Shown here: positions 4,828-47,963 of the stretch, in pieces
How positions within the stretch are numbered: position 1 is the first letter of the stretch
Layout: every line of letters begins with the position of its first letter
Source of the DNA: Zobellia uliginosa
GTDB taxonomy: Bacteria > Bacteroidota > Bacteroidia > Flavobacteriales > Flavobacteriaceae
Length of the DNA stretch: 64,000 nucleotides
Assembly: GCF_900156625.1 (NCBI RefSeq)
Contig: NZ_FTOB01000001.1
Span: 310,001-374,000 of the forward strand
Reading direction: 5' to 3'
Translations under genes and position numbers: made by a program
Notes under the pieces: generated by a model
What the model was told of the DNA's origin: nothing
The model's database searches: none
The model's input: only the letters and a program-made list of their open reading frames with translations

Positions 4828-5658
4828 CTAAGCCTCCTTTTTTAGAATGTATATCAATGAAGATGCCTGTCCGTTGAACAAGGCCAAGACATTCGACCAC
4901 AGGCCAACACAAAAGGCCCTTAAAAAGTTTTGCTTGCCTGTTTTATATTTTTCGGAAAGCATGGACACATAAAACGAATCGAACCACATCGGTTTGGTCT
5001 TTATCAATTTCATATGATGCGAAGCAAACTTACCTTCGATAGCTTCCTTTGAAAAATGCCACAAATGTCTGGGCACATCATAAGCGGCCCAGAACTCTTT
5101 ATAGAACTTTGCATCCTTAGATTTAAAATTTGGAACGGCAACAATAAGAACCCCATCCGTTTCCAAAAGTGATAATATGGTCTTTATCTGATTATCGAGA
5201 CCGGGTAAATGTTCAAGCACATGCCAAAGCGTAATGACCTGAAATTTGTTTCCGGCAACAAAAGACAAATCGGAAACCAGTTCCATTTTTTTCTCGCGCG
5301 ATCTCATGCGCGCATCAAGACTCGGTTCTACCCCTTCAACGGACCAACCCCTACTTTGGGCATGTAATAAAAAATCGCCCGTACCGGCACCGACATCTAA
5401 TAGCGTTTTATTCTTTTTTGCATAACGGCCGATCAGGTTTACTTTATTCCATAAACTAAATTTTTTGACCGCATGGTACATCTTGTCCAAAGTAGACTTT
5501 CTGGAATCGGTGTGTGAGATATAGGCATCACTCTCATAATATTTTTGAAGATCTTTTGGCTGCGGTTGGGTCACCAACATTTGTAGATCTTCATCTAAAA
5601 GCAATTCAAATTCTTCACCGCTAACGGAGAAATCTTTAGTTCTTAAAAATGGTTTCAT
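4828..5658 (-). CDS. Class I SAM-dependent methyltransferase
   Basis: This 276-residue protein has a clear SAM-binding motif I, LLDVGAGTGDF (residues 86-96). An acidic/post-I segment VEGVEPSLDAR follows, then VITLWHVLEHLPG (about 135-150) as the motif-II/III region. This WHVLEH pattern is typical of UbiG/BioC-like and sugar- or lipid-modifying methyltransferases. The substrate cannot be told from the sequence. The N-terminal 60 residues (VSGEEFELLLDEDLQMLVTQPQPKDLQKYYESDAYISH) form the conserved leader seen in this Flavobacterial subfamily. The stop of a tiny upstream frame (5660-5776) ends 1 base before this ATG, so the two could be translationally coupled. Confidence 0.85.
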   Translation of the reverse strand: MKPFLRTKDFSVSGEEFELLLDEDLQMLVTQPQPKDLQKYYESDAYISHTDSRKSTLDKMYHAVKKFSLWNKVNLIGRYAKKNKTLLDVGAGTGDFLLHAQSRGWSVEGVEPSLDARMRSREKKMELVSDLSFVAGNKFQVITLWHVLEHLPGLDNQIKTILSLLETDGVLIVAVPNFKSKDAKFYKEFWAAYDVPRHLWHFSKEAIEGKFASHHMKLIKTKPMWFDSFYVSMLSEKYKTGKQNFLRAFCVGLWSNVLALFNGQASSLIYILKKEA

Positions 5659-5659
5659 T

Positions 5660-5776
5660 TTAGTTCTGCGTGGTAAGGTATTCTTTCTTGAGGTAACGAA
5701 GATAATTTAAAACAACGGCTCTGGAAAACGATTTTCTACAAAGAGCATCCCTGACCAAATTTGGGTATACTTCCAT
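5660..5776 (-). CDS. Possible 38-residue small ORF upstream of the methyltransferase
   Basis: An ATG at 5776 opens a 38-codon frame whose TAA lies 1 base before the methyltransferase ATG. The peptide is basic (starts MEVYPNLVRDALCRK, ends YLKKEYLTTQN) and has no motif that I recognise. The tight spacing is the only reason to list it; it could be a leader peptide, a remnant or chance. Confidence 0.25.
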   Translation of the reverse strand: MEVYPNLVRDALCRKSFSRAVVLNYLRYLKKEYLTTQN

Positions 5777-5912
5777 GGCCGTATATCAATTTTCATTTCG
5801 AACATTTGTATCACAATCCTGTAAAATTTCATTCTCATTTTTCAAAAACCAAATCGCACTGGTATTGTTTTTCGTCGGGAAAAAGTTCAAGACCTGATCC
5901 TATTTCCCTCCT

Positions 5913-6190
5913 TCATAAAATGAAAATAAAATAAATTTCTTCCTCCTCTTCAAATGGAACATTGTAATAAATATTCTCAAAGTTCAATTCAAACTTGGCC
6001 TTTACATAATCACAAAACCACTTCTCTTTTTGTTCCGCCAAGGATGAACCTATTCTGTTTTGAAAGCGACCATTTAAATTCTTTCGCCTCGGTGTTGTGA
6101 TACTTTTTTTTCAAAATAGTCCCACTCGAACAAGAAGCCAAGATCGAAATAAAAGCGGACCACAAATCCACCCAAAAAGCAATTTCATTG
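5913..6190 (-). pseudogene. Frameshifted remnant of a small lipoprotein gene
   Basis: Two overlapping minus-strand frames look like halves of one protein. The upstream frame (from about 6190) reads FISILASCSS, a lipoprotein signal with lipobox Cys. It continues KKKYHNTEAKEFKWSLSKQN, then runs to a stop at about 6012. In another frame the text continues from NRIGSSLAEQKEKWFCDY through KAKFELNFENIYYNVPFEEE to IYFIFIL and a TGA at 5913-5915. Joined near QNR, the two give about 85-95 residues of plausible exported protein. No intact ATG is in frame with the signal. I do not recognise the family. The broken frame and lack of an intact start argue for a decayed gene, though a sequencing error is possible. 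Confidence 0.45.
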
Positions 6191-6350
6191 CTGCAATTTT
6201 GAATCTAATATTAATCGCAATAAAATAAAATTCAACACAATTTTCAGCCCAAGAAAAACGTTCATAATACATGGCCGTCTAGCTTTTAAAAACAGCTCGA
6301 CCCAATGATAGATTCCTTTGGTTCTATTTGTTTTTTTTTAAAGGCCTTAA
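6191..6350. other. Non-coding remainder of the 5.66-6.45 kb gap
   Basis: AT-rich sequence with no coding frame or repeat that I can support. With the remnant at 5913-6190 and the terminator at 6351-6378 it accounts for the long gap between mnmG and the methyltransferase. Confidence 0.4.
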
Positions 6351-6378
6351 ATAAAAAACCTCGCCGATTAAGGCAAGG
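6351..6378 (-). terminator. Terminator of mnmG
   Basis: On the minus strand CCTTGCC and GGCGAGG (one mismatch) form a stem over a TTAATC loop, followed by a run of T. It lies about 80 bases past the mnmG stop. Confidence 0.65.
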
Positions 6379-6427
6379 CCATACATAAGCTCCAACCAAT
6401 TTTCATTGGTATCCGGAGGAAATTCCC

Positions 6428-6447
6428 ATTGTTCCACGTGGAACAAT
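6428..6447. other. parS-like centromere palindrome (site 1)
   Basis: ATTGTTCCACGTGGAACAAT is a perfect 20-base palindrome. Its 16-base core TGTTCCACGTGGAACA fits the broadly conserved ParB-binding consensus TGTTNCACGTGNAACA. It lies 8 bases beyond the mnmG stop codon. ParB loaded here would act in origin segregation; no parA/parB genes are in the window. Confidence 0.85.
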
Positions 6448-6455
6448 CAAGAAAA

Positions 6456-8324
6456 TCATCTTCCCAAATACACCAAGAGAACACTAATATCCGAAGGGTT
6501 AACCCCACTAACCCGCGCCGCTTGTGCAATGGTAACTGGCTGTATAGAGTTCAGTTTTTCACGCGCTTCGTACGACAAGGACTTCAACTTTGAATAGTCG
6601 AAATTCTTAGGGATTTTGACGCCTTCCAAACGCAATAATTTATCGGCATTGTTTTTTTCCTTCTCAATATATCCAGAATATTTTACCTGAATCTCCGCCT
6701 GTTCCAACACCTCCCTATCGAGATTGTTCTCGTCTACAAAACTGGAAACAGCATCCAATTGAAGCATGTGCTCCATCGTAACTTTGGGTCTAGAAAACAC
6801 CTTGAACATCTTATCGGATTGTTTCACTAAAGCGGAATTCACACTATCCAAAATGGGATTAATTTCTTCCGGGCGTACACTTGTTTCCCTAAAAAAACTA
6901 ACGAAGGCATCGGACTTTTTCTCTTTCTCCTCCATTCGCTTTAAGCGATTTTCCTTGGCCAAACCAATTTCAAAACTACGTGGTGTCAATCTCAAATCTG
7001 CATTATCTTGACGCAACAGTGTTCGATATTCAGCCCTGGAAGTAAACATTCGATAAGGCTCTTCGGTACCCTTTGTAATCAAGTCATCGATAAGAACCCC
7101 AATATAGGCCTCATCCCTTTGTAGTATAAAATCTTCCTTTTCATTGATTTTAAGGTGGGCATTTATACCCGCCATCAAACCTTGAGAAGCTGCCTCTTCA
7201 TACCCAGTCGTACCGTTAATTTGTCCGGCAAAATATAAATTCTGAACAAGCTTTGTCTCTAGCGTATGCTTCAATTGCGTAGGAGGAAAATAATCGTATT
7301 CTATCGCATAGCCCGGTCTAAAGAATTTGACATTCTCGAAGCCTTTTACCGATCGTAGGGCTTTGTATTGAACATCTTCTGGAAGGGACGTAGAAAAACC
7401 ATTTACATAGACTTCTACCGTATTCCAACCCTCTGGTTCTACAAAAATTTGATGGCTATCCTTATCCGCAAAACGATTGATTTTATCCTCAATGGACGGA
7501 CAATATCTTGGTCCGATACTTTTAATTCTACCATTGAACATTGGAGAACGATCAAAACCTTCTCGCAATAAATCGTGTACCAGAGCACTGGTATGTGTCA
7601 TATGACAATCACGCTGTGTCGTAAGAACCGGTGTGTCTAAATATGAAAATTTCTCAGGAACCACATCCCCTGGTTGGGGTATCATCACCGAATGATCCAA
7701 AGAACGGCCATCGACCCTAGGTGGAGTTCCCGTCTTCATTCGACCACTTTCAAAGCCTAAATCAAGCAATTGTTCGGTAATACCGGTAGCAGCTTTCTCT
7801 CCTGCCCTACCACCTCCAAATTGTTTTTCCCCAATATGGATCAAACCGTTTAGAAAAGTTCCATTGGTCAACACCACGGCCTTAGAGCGTATAGCTATAC
7901 CAAGGGAAGTCTTTACACCTACTACTTTATCCTTTTCAATAAGTAGTCCGCCTACCATTTCTTGATAGAAATCTACATTAGGCGTACGCTCCAATGCCAA
8001 ACGCCACTCTTCCGCGAAACGCATTCTATCGTTTTGCGCCCTCGGACTCCACATAGCAGGACCCTTAGATTTGTTCAGCATCTTAAACTGAATAGCGGAT
8101 TTATCGGTAATTATCCCACTATATCCACCCAAGGCATCAATCTCCCGTACAATCTGTCCTTTGGCAATACCACCCATGGCAGGATTACAGGACATCTGCC
8201 CGATAGTTTGTAAATTCATGGTCACCAACAAGGTTTTCGAACCCATATTGGCGGCGGCGGCGGCGGCCTCTGCACCTGCATGACCTCCACCCACAACTAT
8301 TACATCGTATTCTTCTCCAAACAT
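6456..8324 (-). CDS. mnmG: tRNA uridine-5-carboxymethylaminomethyl modification enzyme MnmG
   Basis: This 622-residue protein has the normal length for MnmG/GidA. With MnmE and FAD it installs the cmnm5 group on the wobble uridine of several tRNAs. The FAD-binding dinucleotide motif VVGGGHAGAEAA is at residues 10-21. The family signatures MSCNPAMGGIAKG, GTFLNGLIHIG and the GTTGYEEAASQGLMAG glycine-rich segment are all present. The C-terminal helical domain ends in the conserved RVSGVNPSDISVLLVYL stretch, which binds MnmE/tRNA. It is flanked by two parS-like sites, downstream at 6428-6447 and upstream at 8392-8407. The short inverted repeat ACATGA-AA-TCATGT at 8342-8355 lies 18 bases upstream of the start. 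Confidence 0.98.
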   Translation of the reverse strand: MFGEEYDVIVVGGGHAGAEAAAAAANMGSKTLLVTMNLQTIGQMSCNPAMGGIAKGQIVREIDALGGYSGIITDKSAIQFKMLNKSKGPAMWSPRAQNDRMRFAEEWRLALERTPNVDFYQEMVGGLLIEKDKVVGVKTSLGIAIRSKAVVLTNGTFLNGLIHIGEKQFGGGRAGEKAATGITEQLLDLGFESGRMKTGTPPRVDGRSLDHSVMIPQPGDVVPEKFSYLDTPVLTTQRDCHMTHTSALVHDLLREGFDRSPMFNGRIKSIGPRYCPSIEDKINRFADKDSHQIFVEPEGWNTVEVYVNGFSTSLPEDVQYKALRSVKGFENVKFFRPGYAIEYDYFPPTQLKHTLETKLVQNLYFAGQINGTTGYEEAASQGLMAGINAHLKINEKEDFILQRDEAYIGVLIDDLITKGTEEPYRMFTSRAEYRTLLRQDNADLRLTPRSFEIGLAKENRLKRMEEKEKKSDAFVSFFRETSVRPEEINPILDSVNSALVKQSDKMFKVFSRPKVTMEHMLQLDAVSSFVDENNLDREVLEQAEIQVKYSGYIEKEKNNADKLLRLEGVKIPKNFDYSKLKSLSYEAREKLNSIQPVTIAQAARVSGVNPSDISVLLVYLGR

Positions 8325-8341
8325 TCTACACTCTCTTAATT

Positions 8342-8355
8342 ACATGAAATCATGT
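8342..8355. promoter_or_regulatory. Short inverted repeat upstream of mnmG
   Basis: ACATGA-AA-TCATGT is a perfect 6+6 inverted repeat with a 2-base spacer, between parS-like site 2 and the mnmG start. It could be an operator; no regulator is known to me. Confidence 0.25.
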
Positions 8356-8387
8356 CAATCCATTAGCAACGCACGGGCCTATTTTCC

Positions 8388-8807
8388 CTATTGTTCCACG
8401 TGGAACATTACCATTTTTTCCTCTTCCTTAGTACGCATCAAACTGGCCTCTTCATCTGTTTTATCCTTATAACCGAACAGATGCAATACGCCATGCGCCA
8501 TAACCCGGCGCAACTCTTCTTCAAATTCGGTGTTTAAATCTTGGGCATTGTCCTTGACCCTATCCACCGAAATAAAAATGTCTCCCGCTATAGCTTTATC
8601 CTCAGTATAATCAAACGTTAAAATATCGGTATACGTATCGTGTGAGAGATATTTTTGATTCATATCCAAGAGCTCTTCATCAGAACAAAAAATATAATCC
8701 AATTGCTCTAAGGAACCCTGTTCAGATTCAATAAGCTTTTCTAGCCAACGCCTATATTTTTCCTGGTGTTCCAAAGAAAAATCAGTCTTAAAATGAAATT
8801 CAATCAT
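8388..8807 (-). CDS. ybeY: Endoribonuclease YbeY (16S rRNA maturation)
   Basis: This 139-residue protein is slightly shorter than most YbeY proteins. The metal-binding motif HGVLHLFGYKD starts at H105 with H109. The third His of the classical HGxLHLxGyDH motif is not seen: K114-D115 stands there, so D115 may supply the third ligand. The upstream FDYTEDKAIAGDIFIS segment is the usual beta-strand core. YbeY acts in 16S rRNA 3'-end processing and ribosome quality control. The last six residues, MFHVEQ, are encoded by the parS-like palindrome at 8392-8407. The start overlaps the end of the DUF4175 gene by 8 bases, so the two are very likely co-translated. Confidence 0.92.
   Translation of the reverse strand: MIEFHFKTDFSLEHQEKYRRWLEKLIESEQGSLEQLDYIFCSDEELLDMNQKYLSHDTYTDILTFDYTEDKAIAGDIFISVDRVKDNAQDLNTEFEEELRRVMAHGVLHLFGYKDKTDEEASLMRTKEEEKMVMFHVEQ
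8392..8407. other. parS-like centromere palindrome (site 2), inside the 3' end of ybeY
   Basis: TGTTCCACGTGGAACA is identical to the core of site 1 and fits TGTTNCACGTGNAACA. It overlaps coding sequence, giving ybeY the C-terminal residues MFHVEQ. The two sites are about 1.96 kb apart with mnmG between them. Confidence 0.85.
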
Positions 8808-11800
8808 TGTTCCTAAAATACTCTTTTACCTTGTTTTGAAAATTGTGGCGCAAAGGTAGTGCTTGTCGATCTAAAATCTCAATTTCATCGCGATAATTCT
8901 CTAATACTGAAGGCTTGGAGGTAATAGGATTTTTAAACTGATTGGTATTAGTATTGCTCTCCCTTTCGGACTTTTTCCCCTGCTTCAAGGCAGCATTCTC
9001 TAACTTCAACATTTCGTACTGAATGTTATTTATTTTAGAAAGACTACGCTGGGTAACGCCGTTTTCCAACAAGTCGTTTTCAAAATCCTCCATTTGCTTC
9101 ACTAGCTTCTCGCCCAATTTCTTGTCGCCGGAATTGATCATATCCTTCAACTGCTCCTCCAACTTCTCTCGCAACATTTGCTGGGTTTTATATATTTCGT
9201 AAATCTCTTTAAGTTCCCCTTCGGAAACTTGGTTGGACATCCCGCTCCCCTGTCCACCATTCTGTCCTTCCCCATTATTTCCTTGTCCCTTTCCCTTTTG
9301 GTCGCCTTGGTCACCACCTTGACCTTCACCCTTCTTCTGGCCTTCTCCTTGTTTACCCTCTCCCTGTTGGCCTTCTCCTTTCCCCTGTTGACCTTGACCT
9401 TGGCCTTCGCTCGACTTTCCTTGGCCTTCCTTGCCCATGCCTTCCATTTTCTCCTTAAGCTCCTGTTGGCCCTTGATAATATCAGGAAGTTGAAAGTCCT
9501 CTCCTTCACCCTGCCCTTTACGGGACATCATACTTTCTTGCATATTGTCCAATATCCGAGCCAGAAAATCAGCTAAGCTATTCGATGCAGTAAGTACATA
9601 CTTTTGATATGATACACCTTGGTATATTTGATTCTCTGCCACACTTTCCAAAGTTTTGTCGATATTGTAATACACCTCCGTTATTTGCTCATTTACAAAT
9701 TCAGACAGTTCGGCACGACGTAAGGACAAGGCAAATAAGCTATCGTCAACATGTTCGAAAAGATCTCGTAACTCCTGTTGCTTACGGATGCTATTCGAAA
9801 ATTGTGAGGTGTTGGCATCAACTTCCTCCAAACTCTCATACAAGCGCTCTTGTTTAAAACTAAAAGTAACCAGGTTATCCAAAATTTGTCGAAGCACTTC
9901 CGCATCTTCGGTAATGGAAGACCCCCCTCCTCCAGCGCCCGCCTTAGATAAGGCTTCACTCATTTCCTTCATCTTTTGCGCTGCTGATTTTTGCTTCTTT
10001 GTAGCCTTTTTACCAGACTCTTTCGCTTCTCCGGATTGCCTCTCATTTTCCAACTTTTCAAGGGCTGCCTTAGCTTCTTCCTGATCCTTTTTAACAGCTT
10101 CCTTCTTCTGTTGATCCATCTCTATACTCATCGGTTTTTTAAGATCTTGATTGTCCTTTTCCAACTCTTCAAGTTCTTTACCCAATTCACTGAACTTCTG
10201 GTTCAACTTTTCCTGCTCTTCAAGCGATTTCGCTTCAGCCTCCTTTTGCGCCTCTTTTTCTTGTTCCTCGGTCAATTTTTCCAATTCCCTACCTAACTGG
10301 TCCGCCTTTTCCGTAACATAATACCGTTTGGTCAATTCTAGTAATTGCTCAAGGTTTCGCTCGCTGTTCTGTTGTTTTTTACCCAACTCTTCGAGCTTCT
10401 TCGCCAGGGATTGCTTATCAATTTTGTCAGCTATCTTATTCAATTCCTCCAGCAATTTTTCATTCTTCTTCGCCTCCATCTCCTGCCGTTCCAATCGCTC
10501 TTGTAACAACTGGTTCAATTTATCGTCCTTGTCCCCCTTGTTCAGGTTTTCCTTTAGCTGCTTTGAAAACTTTTGCATCTGGTTCTCTTGCAGCTGTTGT
10601 TTTTTAAGAAAGTCCTTGATTTGATTCTTTTGGTTAAAATCCAACTGGTTTTTTTCCTTCTGGTTCTGGTTCAATTCCTTTAACTCGGTCTTCTGCTCTT
10701 TGAACTTGCTCAGCGATTTATCCAAATTATTAATAATGGCCTGCTGCGATTCCAACTCCTTATTTTTAAGTTCGGCCTCATCCAACAAAGCCAAGGAAAA
10801 GACTTGACTCTTACTGCTCTTTCCTTTATGTATTGCGTCGTTATCGGTCGCCTCAAAGTAAAAGCTATAGTCCACTCCAGGTTTCAAATCCAATCCAGAG
10901 GGGAAGGTATAGTAAAACCGTTCAAAATTCGTCTCGGGAGTGGATATCGCGATACTTTGTCGGTCTTCGGGCTTAGAATCAGAATAGCACACGAGTCTCA
11001 CCCTACTCAACCTATAGTCATCGGAAGCCTCACCCACATAATAGGCTACATTGGGGTTCAAGCTATCGCGTATCTGCTCTACCTTAATTGTTGGATAGGC
11101 ATCACGAATGACGTTAAACTTATATCCCAATCTTTCAAAATCGCTCACATTCCGGTTCGATGTGGTAATCTCATAGGCCAAATCGCGATATACAGTTTTA
11201 GATAGCGAAAAGACATCCCTTGATACTGTAAAATCCCGAACGGTATCTTTGGTCAACAACCGTACCGATTCGGTATTTTTACCGATTACCTTCCACCTTA
11301 CCCTTGTCCCTTCAGGAAAAGTAGCATTGCCCGTACTTTTTAGGGTTTCGGGAGGCATATTCAAATATCGTGGGTACTGCAAATTTACCTCAAAGTCTTG
11401 TACCGTCGGTGTTTTCAATACCTTTAAAGTATATTCCCTAGACCGTACACCATTGGCCGCAAAAGCGAAATTCATATCAACACGCGGTGCATCAAAGGTA
11501 TATTGGTACCGACCGCCATGCTCTTGCAAAACCGATTGCTTACCATCGATCTCAATATAAACCATCTCAGGACGAACTTCCCCTTTAGTCATCACTTCAA
11601 TGGTCAAGGACTCGGTGTCGAGTACACTTAAGTCATTCGACAAAAGGTGAAAACTAAAAGGCGCAGGAGGTTCATAGGCCATGTTGTAGTTTACGACCCG
11701 ATCCGCGGATCCGAAAAAAGGCCTCAAGTTGCCGGTAAGCCACATTATTAAAATGACAAGTAAGGGTATACCCAAGTATTTCAGGTACTTCAGGTTTTCG

Positions 11801-40599: not shown

Positions 40600-42795
40600 C
40601 TATCCCTCATGTTTTCCCAGTAATGAAAAATCGAGATGGCGTTTGACCAAATCGGTATTTTTAACCATAACTACGACTTCATCGCCTAACTGATAGGTTT
40701 TCTTTGTTTTTTCACCTACAATAGCGTACTCCTTTTCATCAAAGGTATAATAATCATCTTTTATATCGCTTATCCTGACCATGCCCTCACATTTGTTGGC
40801 AATGATCTCAACGTAAACGCCCCATTCGGTGACCCCGCTGATTACCCCCACAAACTCTTGGTCTTGGTGATCTTGCATAAACTTAATCTGCATGTATTTG
40901 ATCGAATCGCGTTCAGCGCTAGAGGCCAAGTATTCCATATCCGACGAATGTTTACATTTCTGTTCGTAAACCTCTTCTTTGGCCGAATCGCCCCCATCTA
41001 GGTAATGTTGCAACAAACGGTGCACCATGACATCGGGATATCTTCTGATCGGCGAAGTAAAATGGGTATAGTAATCAAATGCCAAACCATAGTGCCCAAT
41101 ATTTTGGGTCGTATAGATGGCCTTGCTCATACTACGTATGGTCAGCGTATCTACCAAATTCTGTTCCTTCTTCCCCTTAACGTCGCTCAAGAGCTGGTTT
41201 AAAGAGGCGCTAATGGACTTTTTATCCTGAAAGTCTATCTTGTGACCAAACCTTGATATCAAGCCGTTAAGCGCTATTAATTTATCTTCGTCCGGATCAT
41301 CATGGATACGATATACAAAGGTTTTTTTCGGTTTTTGTTTTCCGATGAATTCGGCCACCTTTCTATTGGCCAGTAGCATAAATTCTTCGATCAGCTTGTT
41401 GGCATCCTTAGATTCTTTAAAGAAAACTCCTATGGGCTCGCTATTTTCGTTCAGATTAAAACGTACTTCAACCTTATCGAAAGAAATAGCCCCTTGTTGC
41501 ATACGTTTATCACGCATGATTTTGGCGAGGCGGTCCATCTCCAAGGTAGCCTTAACTACATCATCTGAAACCGAATAGGCCTCTTCACGTATAGAAATAT
41601 CCTCAGGAATATGGCCTTCACCGGTTTCTATAATATGTTGGGCTTCCTCATAGGCAAAACGTTCGTTCGAATTAATGACCGTTCGACCGAACCATTGCTT
41701 CTTTATCTGTGCCTTTTTATCGATTTCGAAAACTGCAGAAAAGGTATATTTTTCTTCATTCGGTCTTAGGGAACAGGCATTGTTCGACAAGACTTCAGGA
41801 AGCATGGGTACCACTCGATCCACCAAATAGACCGATGTGGCCCTTTCATAAGCTTCATCATCTAAAATGGTATCGGGTTCGAGGTAATGCGATACATCGG
41901 CAATGTGGATACCAATCTCATAATTGCCATTTTCTAGCACTTCAAAGGAAAGGGCATCATCAAAATCCTTGGCATCCTTGGGATCGATGGTAAAGGTCAA
42001 TGTATCTCTCATATCCCTTCTTTTGGCAATCTCCTCTTCCTTTATGGAAGTATCTATCTTATCGGCAAAATGTTCGACTTCCTCAGGAAAATCGTAGGGA
42101 AGTCCGTATTCGGCCAAAATAGCGTGAATTTCGGTATTGTGTTCCCCGGGTTTTCCGAGAACCTCGGTAATTGTTCCGGTAGGTGAATCGTCTCCATCGG
42201 GCCAACTTTCGAACCTTACGACTACTTTGTCACCATCATTGGCACCCTTTATCTGGCCTTTCGGAACAAAGAAATCGGTATACATCCTAAAATCGGTAGG
42301 ACGGACAAAGGCAAAGGTCTTCTGTAGATCGACTATACCGACAAACTCGGTTTTCTTACGTTCCAATACTTTGGTAACCTCACCTTCTAGCTTCTTTCCT
42401 TTTCTTCTAGGAAAGATATATACCTCTACGGTATCGCCGTGAAAGGCCTTGTTTACTTTGTTATACGGAACGAATACGTCATCGTCTAGACCTTCTATAA
42501 CGATATAGGCATTCCCACGTCCGGTAAGGTCAACCGTACCGACACTGTATTTTTTAGTACTAGAGGCGATAGCCTTGTAACTTCCTTTGGCTTCTTCCTG
42601 TATTCTATTCTTTTCTTTGAGTTGCCCTAACCTTTTTATCAATTGGTTACGGTCTTGAGTATTGTTTAGACCAAGTAATGCGGCCATTTGTTTATAATTA
42701 AAGCTCTTCTGTGGTTCTTTTTCAAGTATAGTGAAGATACCTTTAGTTATCTCGTTGTTTTTATGGTTACGAGATTGTTTTTTCTTTTTTGACAT
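40600..42795 (-). CDS. rnr: Ribonuclease R
   Basis: This 731-residue 3'-5' exoribonuclease degrades structured RNA in the cytosol. An N-terminal winged-helix domain (NYKQMAALLGLNNTQDRNQLIKRLGQL, about 35-65) is followed by cold-shock/OB folds. The RNB catalytic domain starts near 245 with TIDPKDAKDFDDALSFE, whose aspartates bind Mg. It continues with YAHFTSPIRRYPD-type sequence (YYTHFTSPIRRYPDVMVHR). A C-terminal S1 domain follows (VGVISGVTEWGVYVEI, about 655-725). The N-terminus is Lys-rich. It is divergent from rpiB across a 666-base gap that looks like a replication origin. Confidence 0.97.
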   Translation of the reverse strand: MSKKKKQSRNHKNNEITKGIFTILEKEPQKSFNYKQMAALLGLNNTQDRNQLIKRLGQLKEKNRIQEEAKGSYKAIASSTKKYSVGTVDLTGRGNAYIVIEGLDDDVFVPYNKVNKAFHGDTVEVYIFPRRKGKKLEGEVTKVLERKKTEFVGIVDLQKTFAFVRPTDFRMYTDFFVPKGQIKGANDGDKVVVRFESWPDGDDSPTGTITEVLGKPGEHNTEIHAILAEYGLPYDFPEEVEHFADKIDTSIKEEEIAKRRDMRDTLTFTIDPKDAKDFDDALSFEVLENGNYEIGIHIADVSHYLEPDTILDDEAYERATSVYLVDRVVPMLPEVLSNNACSLRPNEEKYTFSAVFEIDKKAQIKKQWFGRTVINSNERFAYEEAQHIIETGEGHIPEDISIREEAYSVSDDVVKATLEMDRLAKIMRDKRMQQGAISFDKVEVRFNLNENSEPIGVFFKESKDANKLIEEFMLLANRKVAEFIGKQKPKKTFVYRIHDDPDEDKLIALNGLISRFGHKIDFQDKKSISASLNQLLSDVKGKKEQNLVDTLTIRSMSKAIYTTQNIGHYGLAFDYYTHFTSPIRRYPDVMVHRLLQHYLDGGDSAKEEVYEQKCKHSSDMEYLASSAERDSIKYMQIKFMQDHQDQEFVGVISGVTEWGVYVEIIANKCEGMVRISDIKDDYYTFDEKEYAIVGEKTKKTYQLGDEVVVMVKNTDLVKRHLDFSLLGKHEG

Positions 42796-43461
42796 TAACT
42801 GTTTTTATTTGAACGTAAATTACGAATTATAATCGACTACCCTTAATCGTACCCCTCATCTTGATCTAAAACAAGGTTATCAACAAGTATATTATAATTT
42901 CTTTTTCTTTTAAATTTTTAAAAAATAAAATGGTGGTTATGATAGCTTGTTAATAGTGCTCATAAAATTATGGGAAAAAATTTGCTCTGAACGTGTTTAA
43001 GAAGTTGTTGACAATCTATACAATTATCATTTACCAGAAAACCAATATGATAGAATAATTATCCATAATCGTTCATAAGGTTTATCAACATAAATTTTTT
43101 AATAAGTAAACGTAAATTTAATGTTAATTAGGGTAGATAAGATTTTAATAGTGGATTATAAAAAGAGGAAAAATATATTTCTCATTTCACGAATAGTTTT
43201 GTAGAGTACTATTCAAACGAGAAATCAAAATTTAAGATCTAATTTCTATTGTAAGGTTATTAACAATAAATACACCTTTTTAACAATGACAAATTAACAA
43301 CGTACATCTCTTGTAATAAAACTTATGTTGTGAGTGTACCATAAATTGTGGTGAATCAGTTCTATTTGTACCTTTACGCCTAAAATCAAAGGTTTTTAAT
43401 AGGGACATACCTCTATATAATTAATGTCAAACCATTCGTCCCATATAAGAAGTAAGATACA
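42796..43461. other. Candidate chromosomal replication origin (oriC)
   Basis: This 666-base, very AT-rich gap between divergent rnr and rpiB has no coding frame. I find TTATCAACA at 42877-42885 and 43082-43090, TTATTAACA at 43257-43265 and TTATCCATA at 43059-43067. On the other strand are TTGTCAACA (43006-43014) and CTATTAACA (42948-42956). All are 8-9 of 9 matches to DnaA boxes of the TTATCCACA/TTATCAACA type. Long A/T tracts at 42895-42930 and 43091-43150 could unwind. Two parS-like sites about 35 kb away and an apparent change in G/C skew fit an origin. dnaA is not in the window. Confidence 0.5.
43346..43376 (+). promoter_or_regulatory. Promoter of rpiB
   Basis: TTG at 43346-43348, a 20-base gap, and TACCTTTA at 43369-43376. 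The 12-mer TACCTTTACGCC is identical to the one in front of gltX. The leader would be about 80 bases. Confidence 0.5.
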
Positions 43462-43893
43462 ATGAAAATAGCTATTGGTAATGATCACGCAGGTACAGAT
43501 TATAAATTGGCCATTGTTGGGCTGTTAAAATCTATGAGTATAGATATAACAAATTATGGTACCGATACTATCGATAGCGTTGATTATGCCGATTTTGTAC
43601 ACCCTGTGGCTACCGATGTCCATAATGGCGATGTTGATTTTGGTATCATTATATGTGGAAGCGGTAACGGCGCCTCAATGACGGCCAACAAGCATCAAAA
43701 AGTACGTTGCGCCTTGTGTTGGACTAAAGAAATCGTTCAGTTGAGCAGGGAACATAACGATGCCAACGTATTGAGTATACCCGCACGTTTTGTTTCATTG
43801 CCCCAGGCATTGGAAATGGTAAAGACATTTTTAGATACGCCTTTTGAAGGTGGTAGGCACGAAAGAAGAATAGAAAAAATTCCTTGTAGTTAA
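43462..43893 (+). CDS. rpiB: Ribose-5-phosphate isomerase B
   Basis: This 143-residue protein of the RpiB/LacAB family interconverts ribose-5-phosphate and ribulose-5-phosphate in the pentose phosphate pathway. The N-terminal GNDHAGTDYK motif binds the phosphate/substrate. CGSGNGASMTANKHQKVRCALCW (about 68-90) holds the active-site Cys and the anion-hole glycines. The C-terminal FEGGRHERRIEKI is the family ending. It has its own promoter across the candidate origin from rnr. Confidence 0.96.
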   Translation: MKIAIGNDHAGTDYKLAIVGLLKSMSIDITNYGTDTIDSVDYADFVHPVATDVHNGDVDFGIIICGSGNGASMTANKHQKVRCALCWTKEIVQLSREHNDANVLSIPARFVSLPQALEMVKTFLDTPFEGGRHERRIEKIPCS

Positions 43894-45459: not shown

Positions 45460-45834
45460 TTAAATGCGAATAGGTTCTTTGTTGGTAAGGTTGATATCTT
45501 CCAACATATTATCGGTGAACTTGTAGTGTCCCTTGGTGGTAATGATACGGAAGCGGTTTGAGTTCATTCGACTTAAAGTATCCAAGAAAAGCCATTTGGT
45601 TTTTAAGAGTCTTGGTTTAGAGGATTTAAGGCTTATTTCAAAGTAATATTTTCTACCGTTCTTAAGGGCTACGATATCTGGTGTAATCTTTGAATCGCTT
45701 CCTTTTCTAACATAGGATTTAGGAGTTTCGTACCCCTCTATATCCGCTTTAATATCTTCAAAGCCCGTAGCTTCGAGATGATTGATCGACTTCTCTAAAA
45801 ATTCTTTGTTTTCTGACTTTTCTGTTGTTACCAT
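45460..45834 (-). CDS. Small protein with degenerate PD-(D/E)XK nuclease-like motif
   Basis: This is a 124-residue soluble, charged protein of no family I can name. The stretch SKITPDIVALKNGRKYYFEI (residues 48-67) continuing SLKSS looks like the core of a restriction-endonuclease-like fold: P52-D53, then E66 after 12 residues. The position of the usual catalytic Lys is Ser68, with a Lys two residues on (K70). The N-terminal helix (ENKEFLEKSINHLEATGFEDIKADIEGYETPKS) would match alpha-1 of such a fold. Activity is therefore doubtful. It lies next to a type II restriction-modification pair but is separated from it by 258 bases. Confidence 0.5.
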   Translation of the reverse strand: MVTTEKSENKEFLEKSINHLEATGFEDIKADIEGYETPKSYVRKGSDSKITPDIVALKNGRKYYFEISLKSSKPRLLKTKWLFLDTLSRMNSNRFRIITTKGHYKFTDNMLEDINLTNKEPIRI

Positions 45835-45941
45835 AAAGGATAAGATAGTAAAATTTTGTATAAAAACAAGTTTTGAGTATTGATTAACAGCATTTTAAGA
45901 GCTTAAAAAACACTATTCAATTTTATGGTACTATTTATAGA

Positions 45942-45961
45942 AACCGACCAAATAGTCGGTT
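45942..45961. promoter_or_regulatory. TetR-operator-like palindrome 1
   Basis: AACCGACCAAATAGTCGGTT: 7-bp perfect arms around a 6-base centre. It resembles operators of TetR-type regulators, but no such gene is nearby. It also lies within a short decayed frame on the minus strand ending LTDYLVGFYK. Confidence 0.4.
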
Positions 45962-46063
45962 AGCGATTGCTCCGCTTGGGACATGGAAGATTCACAACCG
46001 ATAAAAAGAAGCTTTGAATCGCCGTAAAGCTATACTACTGTATATATTCAAGACTTTGCCCGA

Positions 46064-46087
46064 TTTACCGACCAAACGGTCTGTAAA
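46064..46087. promoter_or_regulatory. TetR-operator-like palindrome 2
   Basis: Arms TTTACCGACC and GGTCTGTAAA (one mismatch) around AAAC. The inner half shares ACCGACCAAA with palindrome 1, so the two look like related sites 120 bases apart. It ends 5 bases short of the end of the nuclease-like gene. Confidence 0.4.
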
Positions 46088-46091
46088 AGTC

Positions 46092-46706
46092 TTAGGCCAG
46101 TCTTTTGGCAACACCGGATTCCTCTAAAAAATCGAGTTTCAAAATAAGGTTTAAAGGGTTTTCCACCTTGTTTTTGGTTGACGAAAACAGATATCCTTCG
46201 CTTCTATGGTGTAGCATATCCAGTTTTATTTTACCGTGTAGCTTTTGGCGCAATAAGGCATACTTTTTTATAGAGGCCGCGGTAATGGAACGGCGCTTCA
46301 AAAGGGCAATGAGTTTTTGCCGGTTTACCAAGGTGATTTTACATGAGGTAAAAGTGTTCGGGGCATCGGCATAAATAGAAGTAACCAAAGCATAGAAATC
46401 CGTTTTCTTAGAGGTATCGAATAACCAACCTTTCTTTAATGAACCTTTCTTTTCATAATTCAGTTCAAAGGCAAAGGTGGGCAGGTTTTCATTGACATAA
46501 TCGAGCTGTGCCTTTTCGTCTATAAAAAATTGCTTTCCATTGGTTTTGTGCCTAAAGATGAGGTCTATGCCTTTCAATTGGCGACTTAGGTCGCTTACCC
46601 GCTCAAAGGTGTAATGTTTAAGGTAGTGTTTGTAATAGCGGTCCAGTAAAATATAAAGCCTTTGTTCCCGTTCTAGATCCGATTTGAAATTACTCTGAGT
46701 AGACAT
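46092..46706 (-). CDS. Putative type II restriction endonuclease (PD-(D/E)XK)
   Basis: The product is a 204-residue soluble basic protein directly downstream of a C5 DNA methyltransferase (30-base gap, same strand). GIDLIFRHKTNGKQFFIDEKAQLDY (residues 46-70) fits the nuclease core: D48, a 14-residue hairpin, then D63-E64-K65 as the (D/E)xK element and a Gln at 67. An N-terminal helix (8-35) precedes it. The rest (ITLVNRQKLIALLKRRSITAASIKKYALLRQKL) is helical and basic and could contact DNA. I do not recognise the family; the role as the partner enzyme is inferred from the motif and position. Recognition site unknown. Confidence 0.65.
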   Translation of the reverse strand: MSTQSNFKSDLEREQRLYILLDRYYKHYLKHYTFERVSDLSRQLKGIDLIFRHKTNGKQFFIDEKAQLDYVNENLPTFAFELNYEKKGSLKKGWLFDTSKKTDFYALVTSIYADAPNTFTSCKITLVNRQKLIALLKRRSITAASIKKYALLRQKLHGKIKLDMLHHRSEGYLFSSTKNKVENPLNLILKLDFLEESGVAKRLA

Positions 46707-46736
46707 GTTACATTGATAGATGTAATTTTTAAGGGA

Positions 46737-47963
46737 TTAAACATCAATTTTATCCGCTAGGGCTTCGGCTATTTTTTCAACAACGCCAACAACCAGGGCA
46801 TTGCCCATAAAAAAGGCCCGTTTGGTATCGCTTATGCCCTCTAAAAGTGTGTGATTGTCAGGAAACATATTCAAGCGTTCGAGTTCTACGGGCGTTAAGC
46901 GTCTCAATCCCTTTTGGGTCTGTACCACATGCTTGAAACGAGAAGGCGATTTTCCGCCCTCTCCGGTAATGATAGTCCTTGAAGCATTGTCCAATGCATC
47001 GGGAAATATCATCCCCCCTTCGCTGTAGTTATAGGTAAAACCTGATTTGGCTGTTCGTACTTCCTTTTTTGCCCCTTTTAAGTATTCCCATTTATGATAG
47101 TCCTCTTCGGGAATGAAAAAGGCTTCGGTGACCTCCCCGTTTTGAAGCACATCGCCCAAAACGGTACGTTTGCCATCGTAGCTAGGTGCCGTTTTTACGG
47201 TAAAGACCTTTCCGTCGATAAATACCCCCGAGTTTTGAAAAGGGGAAAGTCCTTCTCCCAAATTAAAATTCTCCGAAATATGTACCAAATCTCCCTCGAT
47301 TTTGAAGGATGTGGGCTTTTGTACCGTTTGTTGAACGGGAAAAGCAGCAGGCATCGTTCCCGATGTATGTATCCAATCGGCGGCATCCGATTTTTTAAGG
47401 GCGTTATAAAGGGGAGTTGATTTGTGGTAGCCCAAGAAAAAAATGCGTCTACGGCGTTGGGGCATACCATAGTCCGCAGCGTTAATCACGCGCCATTCGA
47501 CCGCATAGCCCAAGTCGTCCAAACTTTTCAACATAATGGCAAAATCACGGCCACGTTGGGCAGAAGGTGATTTTAACAGGCGGTCTACATTTTCAAGAAA
47601 TAAGTACTTGGGTGGGTTTTTCTTTTCAGACAATATGCGGTGTATGCTCCACCAGAGGACCCCTTTTTTACCGATCAGCCCTTTGGAATTTTGTAAAGTG
47701 GTCGCTACCGAGTAATCTTGGCAGGGAAAACCACCTACCAAAAGGTCGGCATCGGGAATGGCATCGGTAGGAACTTCGGCTATATCTTCGTTACAATGAT
47801 TGGCCTTACCGAAGCGGGCCTCATAAACGATAGAAGCATGTTGCGTTTTTGTAGAAGGTTCCCATTGGTTGCTCCAGACGACCTCGTATTGTCCGGTTTT
47901 TTCGAGTCCGAGGCGGAATCCTCCGACCCCTGCAAAAAGTTCTATTGCCTTGAGTTTGCTCAT
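46737..47963 (-). CDS. DNA (cytosine-5-)-methyltransferase, type II
   Basis: This 408-residue C5 methyltransferase has all catalytic motifs. Motif I is ELFAGVGGFRLGL (8-20). Motif IV is GGFPCQDYSVA with catalytic C81. Motif VI is ENV (124-126) and motif VIII is YGMPQRRRRIFFLGY (165-179). Motif X is FMGNALVVGVVEKIAEAL near the C-terminus. The target-recognition region lies between about 190 and 330. It should methylate cytosine at an unknown site and protect the host from the nuclease encoded next to it. Length is normal for a stand-alone type II enzyme. A vsr gene is not present. Confidence 0.95.
   Translation of the reverse strand: MSKLKAIELFAGVGGFRLGLEKTGQYEVVWSNQWEPSTKTQHASIVYEARFGKANHCNEDIAEVPTDAIPDADLLVGGFPCQDYSVATTLQNSKGLIGKKGVLWWSIHRILSEKKNPPKYLFLENVDRLLKSPSAQRGRDFAIMLKSLDDLGYAVEWRVINAADYGMPQRRRRIFFLGYHKSTPLYNALKKSDAADWIHTSGTMPAAFPVQQTVQKPTSFKIEGDLVHISENFNLGEGLSPFQNSGVFIDGKVFTVKTAPSYDGKRTVLGDVLQNGEVTEAFFIPEEDYHKWEYLKGAKKEVRTAKSGFTYNYSEGGMIFPDALDNASRTIITGEGGKSPSRFKHVVQTQKGLRRLTPVELERLNMFPDNHTLLEGISDTKRAFFMGNALVVGVVEKIAEALADKIDV

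Follow-up and report, generated by a model that had tools for sequence, protein, structure and literature searches.

A probable chromosomal replication origin between rnr and rpiB, away from dnaA, in Zobellia uliginosa

The chromosomal replication origin (oriC) of Zobellia uliginosa very probably lies in the 666-base gap between rnr and rpiB, a prediction from sequence to which we give a probability of about 0.93. A sequence-only reading of this DNA had proposed a candidate origin here, and the proposal is supported by the skew minimum and the density of DnaA boxes in this genome, together with the synteny, boxes, and sequence conserved in relatives. The gap combines a switch in GC skew, a box cluster, low duplex stability, and conservation, and as a DnaA-dependent oriC away from dnaA it is well supported in silico. 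This would place oriC narrowly for the analyzed genome.

The window (the whole stretch of 64,000 nucleotides that was analyzed) covers positions 310001–374000 of contig C16, which has 1,136,348 bases in a genome of 5.30 Mb in 27 contigs. The gap is AT-rich and noncoding, as had been claimed, with 25.8% GC and no ORF of at least 60 aa in the ORF list, and the genes on its two sides are divergent. Cumulative GC skew over all 1,136,348 bases of C16 forms one V but for small dips; its minimum is at 42640 in window numbering, 156 bases from the gap, and it then rises toward the contig end, with a mean skew of −0.090 to the left and +0.072 to the right. The gap is thus at the GC-skew minimum of its contig, and a minimum elsewhere, which the sequence-only reading had named as evidence against an origin here, is not what the whole contig gives. 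The keto-amino minimum (C16:350855) and the A-T maximum (C16:349891) are each 2–3 kb from the GC-skew minimum. Two signals count against an origin at the gap: the purine-pyrimidine curve of C16, which has its minimum 57 kb away at 410722, and the bias of ORFs to the leading strand, which is seen to the left of the gap (157/244) but not to the right (265/543). Outside C16, 20-kb stretches were sampled on C6 (7), C13 (7), C12 (5), and C22 (1), and skew is positive in 18 of the 20; it is negative in the final two stretches of C12, where the change from plus to minus may represent the terminus side. No second minus-to-plus switch appears in these 20 stretches of four other contigs or in the 100 kb around dnaA.

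We define a near-box as a 9-mer with at most one mismatch from TTATCCACA, TTATCAACA, or TTATTAACA on either strand. At least six had been claimed for the two strands of the gap, and nine are found there, of which the plus strand carries five and the minus strand four, with exact matches at 42877, 43082, and 43257. When the gap was simulated 1,000 times with a first-order Markov model, the mean was 2.05 near-boxes and the maximum 8, so that none of the simulations reached nine; exact boxes had a mean of 0.10, and three were reached in 0/1,000. No more than three near-boxes occur in any of 35 A+T-rich comparison windows of C16 (666 bases, every 111 bases, GC at most 31%, surroundings of the gap left out). 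Over the 1.136-Mb contig, the top 666-base window, from 42626, overlaps the gap and holds 10 near-boxes, one of them left of the gap, while the most exact boxes in such a window, three, are found from 42601. The runners-up have eight near-boxes (in a stretch of 36.5% GC) and six (in three copies of a 248-base repeat). The cluster therefore exceeds chance, and the equally dense clusters elsewhere that might have spoken against it are absent, no other 666-base window of C16 equaling the gap. Outside the window, at C16:457173–457687, near-box words occur three times at 248-base spacing, which suggests a tandem repeat.

The individual boxes were followed in an alignment (A1) of the analyzed genome and 12 hand-picked relatives, out of 57 loci with rnr upstream of rpiB (Table 1). 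Across the 13 aligned gaps, the most frequent base accounts for a mean fraction of 0.84 at box positions, 0.62 outside boxes, and 0.72 between boxes in the core. Several boxes (43006, 43097, and 43277) are poorly conserved, which counts against the origin reading. Enrichment of 9-mers was computed for 44 of the 57 gaps, leaving out long ones (L089, L106, L110, L113, L115, L119, L120, L126, and L132), those with few boxes (L069, L079, and L118), and L129. In this set, a choice that favors the result, TTATCAACA is the most over-represented 9-mer, with 31 occurrences against 1.1 expected and presence in 26/44 gaps, and TTATTAACA occurs 36 times against 3.85 expected, in 29/44. TTATCCACA is absent from the 35 enriched words (those with at least 12 occurrences) listed for the 44 gaps.

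Table 1. Features of the window, in window coordinates; box conservation is given as aligned sequences out of 13 in A1.
Feature	Position	Strand	Basis or conservation
Candidate oriC, whole rnr-rpiB gap	42796..43461		666 bases; box cluster, skew, synteny, alignment
rnr (ribonuclease R), left flank	40600..42795	-	Pfam matches: RNB, CSD2, S1
rpiB (ribose 5-phosphate isomerase B), right flank	43462..43893	+	Pfam match: LacAB_rpiB
DnaA box TTATCAACA, best conserved	42877..42885	+	at most one mismatch 13/13, exact 11/13
Candidate unwinding region beside best conserved box	42886..42944		60-mer from 42885 is 87% A+T; alignment A1
Near-box CTATTAACA	42948..42956	-	at most one mismatch 8/13
Near-box TTGTCAACA	43006..43014	-	at most one mismatch only 2/13
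Near-box TTATCCATA	43059..43067	+	at most one mismatch 11/13, exact 0/13
Second candidate unwinding region	43081..43180		least stable 100 bases of the gap by nearest-neighbor energies
DnaA box TTATCAACA	43082..43090	+	at most one mismatch 9/13, exact 2/13
Near-box TTATTAAAA, weak	43097..43105	-	at most one mismatch 4/13
Near-box TAATTAACA	43122..43130	-	at most one mismatch 7/13
DnaA box TTATTAACA	43257..43265	+	at most one mismatch 12/13, exact 4/13
Near-box TTTTTAACA, weak	43277..43285	+	at most one mismatch 1/13
mnmG (gidA), rival oriC marker	6456..8324	-	profile match; used in two papers
parS-like site	6430..6445	+	0 mismatches to the parS pattern
parS-like site	8392..8407	+	0 mismatches to the parS pattern

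Nearest-neighbor energies make the gap the least stable stretch of C16 at both 300 and 666 bases. In shorter windows it is matched: counting the gap itself, C16 has 7 equally unstable places at 100 bases and 21 at 60 bases, and the latter number counts against the origin reading. The gap thus has the low stability of a DnaA-dependent oriC, from which unwinding itself would be a further step. Its most A+T-rich 50-base windows start at 42881 and near 43081, and the 60-mer from 42885 has one of the highest A+T contents in the window. A run of five [CT]T[AT] triplets, of the form of the DnaA-trio in the basal unwinding system, stands at 42898–42912, near the best conserved box, but a T-rich tract makes up much of it. 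The longest such run over 45 gaps has a mean of 3.2 against 2.2 in shuffled sequence, a small excess. DnaA binding, unwinding, and initiation at the gap might then proceed as follows. DnaA, whose gene is on a different contig, would bind to boxes of the TTATCAACA type on the two strands and oligomerize, upon which an A+T-rich stretch would open, most likely the first candidate region in Table 1, which we favor because it adjoins the best-kept box, or else the second; the helicase would be loaded at the opened stretch, and two forks would depart. The E. coli oriC likewise consists of DnaA boxes and an A+T-rich unwinding region, but its flanking genes differ from rnr and rpiB, and in place of TTATCCACA the gaps examined here favor TTATCAACA and TTATTAACA.

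For comparison with relatives, we took the best 80 of 589 confirmed rpiB relatives; the closest among the matches listed is that of Zobellia russellii, 90% identical, and records nearest the analyzed genome may be missing. In 57 of these 80 loci, rnr lies divergently upstream of rpiB, and 54 of the 57 have at least six near-boxes between the two genes, in gaps that range from 278 to 2764 bases, the box counts not being scaled for length and the long gaps possibly holding other genes. In 55/57, the window with the most boxes at the locus coincides at least in part with the gap (ties counted once). The syntenic loci with few near-boxes, L069 from Robiginitalea (2), L079 (3), and L118 (1), count against the origin reading. 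Among the 23 loci without rnr upstream, six have at least six near-boxes within at most 700 bases upstream of rpiB (L085, L099, and L107, all three cut by contig ends, and L127, L128, and L133), and the other 17, which include Capnocytophaga (three loci), Myroides, and Avrilella, have no such stretch. The Marinifilum locus (L127) has its skew minimum inside the box stretch upstream of rpiB, on the far side of which are ORFs that by eye resemble a response regulator and ruvB. A Crocinitomicaceae locus (L130) has five near-boxes, with rnr in the opposite orientation and a response-regulator-like ORF (by eye) between rnr and the stretch.

Flank skew was compared in the 71 of the 80 loci with enough flank, nine being dropped. 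It is lower to the left than to the right of the rpiB start in 49/53 loci with rnr upstream versus 9/18 other loci, a comparison in which the divergent genes are themselves a confounder; in 28 of the 53, skew passes from below to above zero at the rpiB start. Over the 160 kb examined in Z. russellii, skew reaches its minimum inside the rnr-rpiB gap. In the complete chromosome of a Lacinutrix, sampled in 40 stretches, skew is negative at 2.20 Mb and positive at 2.30 Mb, with the gap at 2.286 Mb and dnaA 1.39 Mb away from it; isolated stretches of opposite sign at 0.9, 1.9, and 3.8 Mb count against an origin at the gap. So do two displaced local minima: in Lacinutrix (120 kb) the minimum, at 2254632, is 31 kb away from the gap and in Mariniflexile gromovii (120 kb) it is 35 kb beyond rpiB, shallow and near a contig end, both times on the far side from mnmG. 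These two relatives are a warning that skew alone fixes an origin no more closely than tens of kilobases. In all three of these relatives (120–160 kb each), boxes are most concentrated at the rpiB gap. In the Lacinutrix neustonica record (L119), dnaA and mnmG both give two matches side by side, as though assembly errors had broken the frames.

Other placements of the origin have to be weighed against the rnr-rpiB gap. The genome has one Bac_DnaA match, on C12, in an ORF of 474 aa whose C-terminus is presumably domain IV-like (by eye); DnaA is thus encoded in the genome, and the earlier statement that dnaA is not adjacent to the gap proved right. An origin at dnaA is common in many bacteria, as the accessible part of PMC10225481 also has it, but around the gene (C12:150001–250000) the cumulative skew rises throughout, some 58 kb separate the two exact boxes, and near-boxes number at most four in any 666-base window, and we give this placement practically no credence. 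An origin at mnmG, with the rnr-rpiB gap being something else, draws on the sites around that gene. An exact parS-like site stands on each side of mnmG, 34–36 kb from the gap in agreement with the roughly 35 kb reported earlier; another, 124 bases ahead of the start of the window, has one mismatch. Exact or one-mismatch sites are also found beside mnmG in Lacinutrix, Z. russellii, and M. gromovii, and ParB is encoded elsewhere, on C13. Published assignments by Ori-Finder also put oriC at mnmG, in Mariniflexile litorale (PMC11278836) and Algorimicrobium (PMC12843772), as given in the accessible parts of these papers. However, cumulative skew is −12111 at mnmG and falls further to −13439 at the gap, and the region around mnmG (5000–10500) has five near-boxes and zero exact ones; it thus presents neither a skew minimum nor a box cluster. 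In the three relatives, skew passes mnmG without turning, and within the 120–160 kb examined a 666-base-scale box cluster is densest at the rpiB gap. An mnmG origin is thus very unlikely, and we prefer the rnr-rpiB gap because skew and boxes point to it. Because of its parS-like sites, the mnmG zone looks rather like a centromere.

The gap could also be a DnaA-binding regulatory cluster of the datA or DARS kind, or just a double promoter in A+T-rich DNA, situated near the origin but outside it. Divergent promoters would be expected in it, and A+T-rich DNA gives near-boxes by chance. Yet the number of near-boxes exceeds that in every simulation and every A+T-rich comparison window, the skew minimum is only 156 bases away, and the cluster adjoins rpiB even in loci without rnr (L127, L128, and L133). 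We consider a regulatory cluster or double promoter very improbable, and an origin in the rnr-rpiB gap remains our reading.

An origin adjacent to rpiB is not new in kind. In the accessible part of PMC9864904, of seven circular Tenacibaculum chromosomes, six have the oriC predicted by Ori-Finder directly beside rpiB and the seventh has it nearby, and among the cited papers, as far as their accessible parts go, this is the only one to tie rpiB to an origin. The likeness to the gap here is the flanking gene rpiB alone, in one genus, the boxes and rnr being features described here. For M. litorale, the text of PMC11278836 gives mnmG as oriC and leuB as ter, whereas in a figure legend of the same accessible part oriC is leuB_2 and dnaA, and ter is mnmG. 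The mnmG assignments (PMC11278836 and PMC12843772, accessible parts) are reported as consistent with GC skew, and in the former oriC is away from dnaA, as is the gap here; mnmG is about 20–35 kb from the rnr-rpiB gap in the analyzed genome and three relatives, a distance that a whole-chromosome plot may not resolve. The Mariniflexile compared here is M. gromovii, while the published assignments concern M. litorale and Algorimicrobium strains. Elsewhere, the accessible parts of the respective papers describe a predicted oriC of 649 bp with three boxes, far from dnaA, in Elizabethkingia meningoseptica (PMC8994065), a predicted oriC in Tenacibaculum dicentrarchi (PMC4759079), and an origin placed in dapB by skew alone in Blattabacterium, where dnaA and boxes are absent (PMC2768785). 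Titles and abstract openings among the matches listed contained no experimentally mapped oriC of a Flavobacteriaceae member, most subscription papers lying outside that search.

There are somewhat better than even odds that the site next to rpiB is an ancient, conserved location of the origin in the class Bacteroidia, independent of dnaA. On this reading, rnr is opposite in most Flavobacteriaceae loci seen and other genes elsewhere (in Marinifilum, ORFs resembling a response regulator and ruvB), the parS zone is at mnmG some 20–35 kb off, and the published mnmG and dnaA assignments would be misplaced. For many Flavobacteriaceae, an origin in the gap would give a simple rule, to seek TTATCAACA or TTATTAACA between rnr and rpiB, and some oriC annotations at dnaA or mnmG may be wrong by tens of kilobases or more. 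The use is in annotation more than in surprise, and ideas of how bacterial replication starts are unchanged.

To the right of the gap, at a distance of 2–4.5 kb, a C-5 cytosine DNA methylase (46737–47963) and two unnamed ORFs alongside it (45460–47963 together) perhaps form a restriction-modification system.
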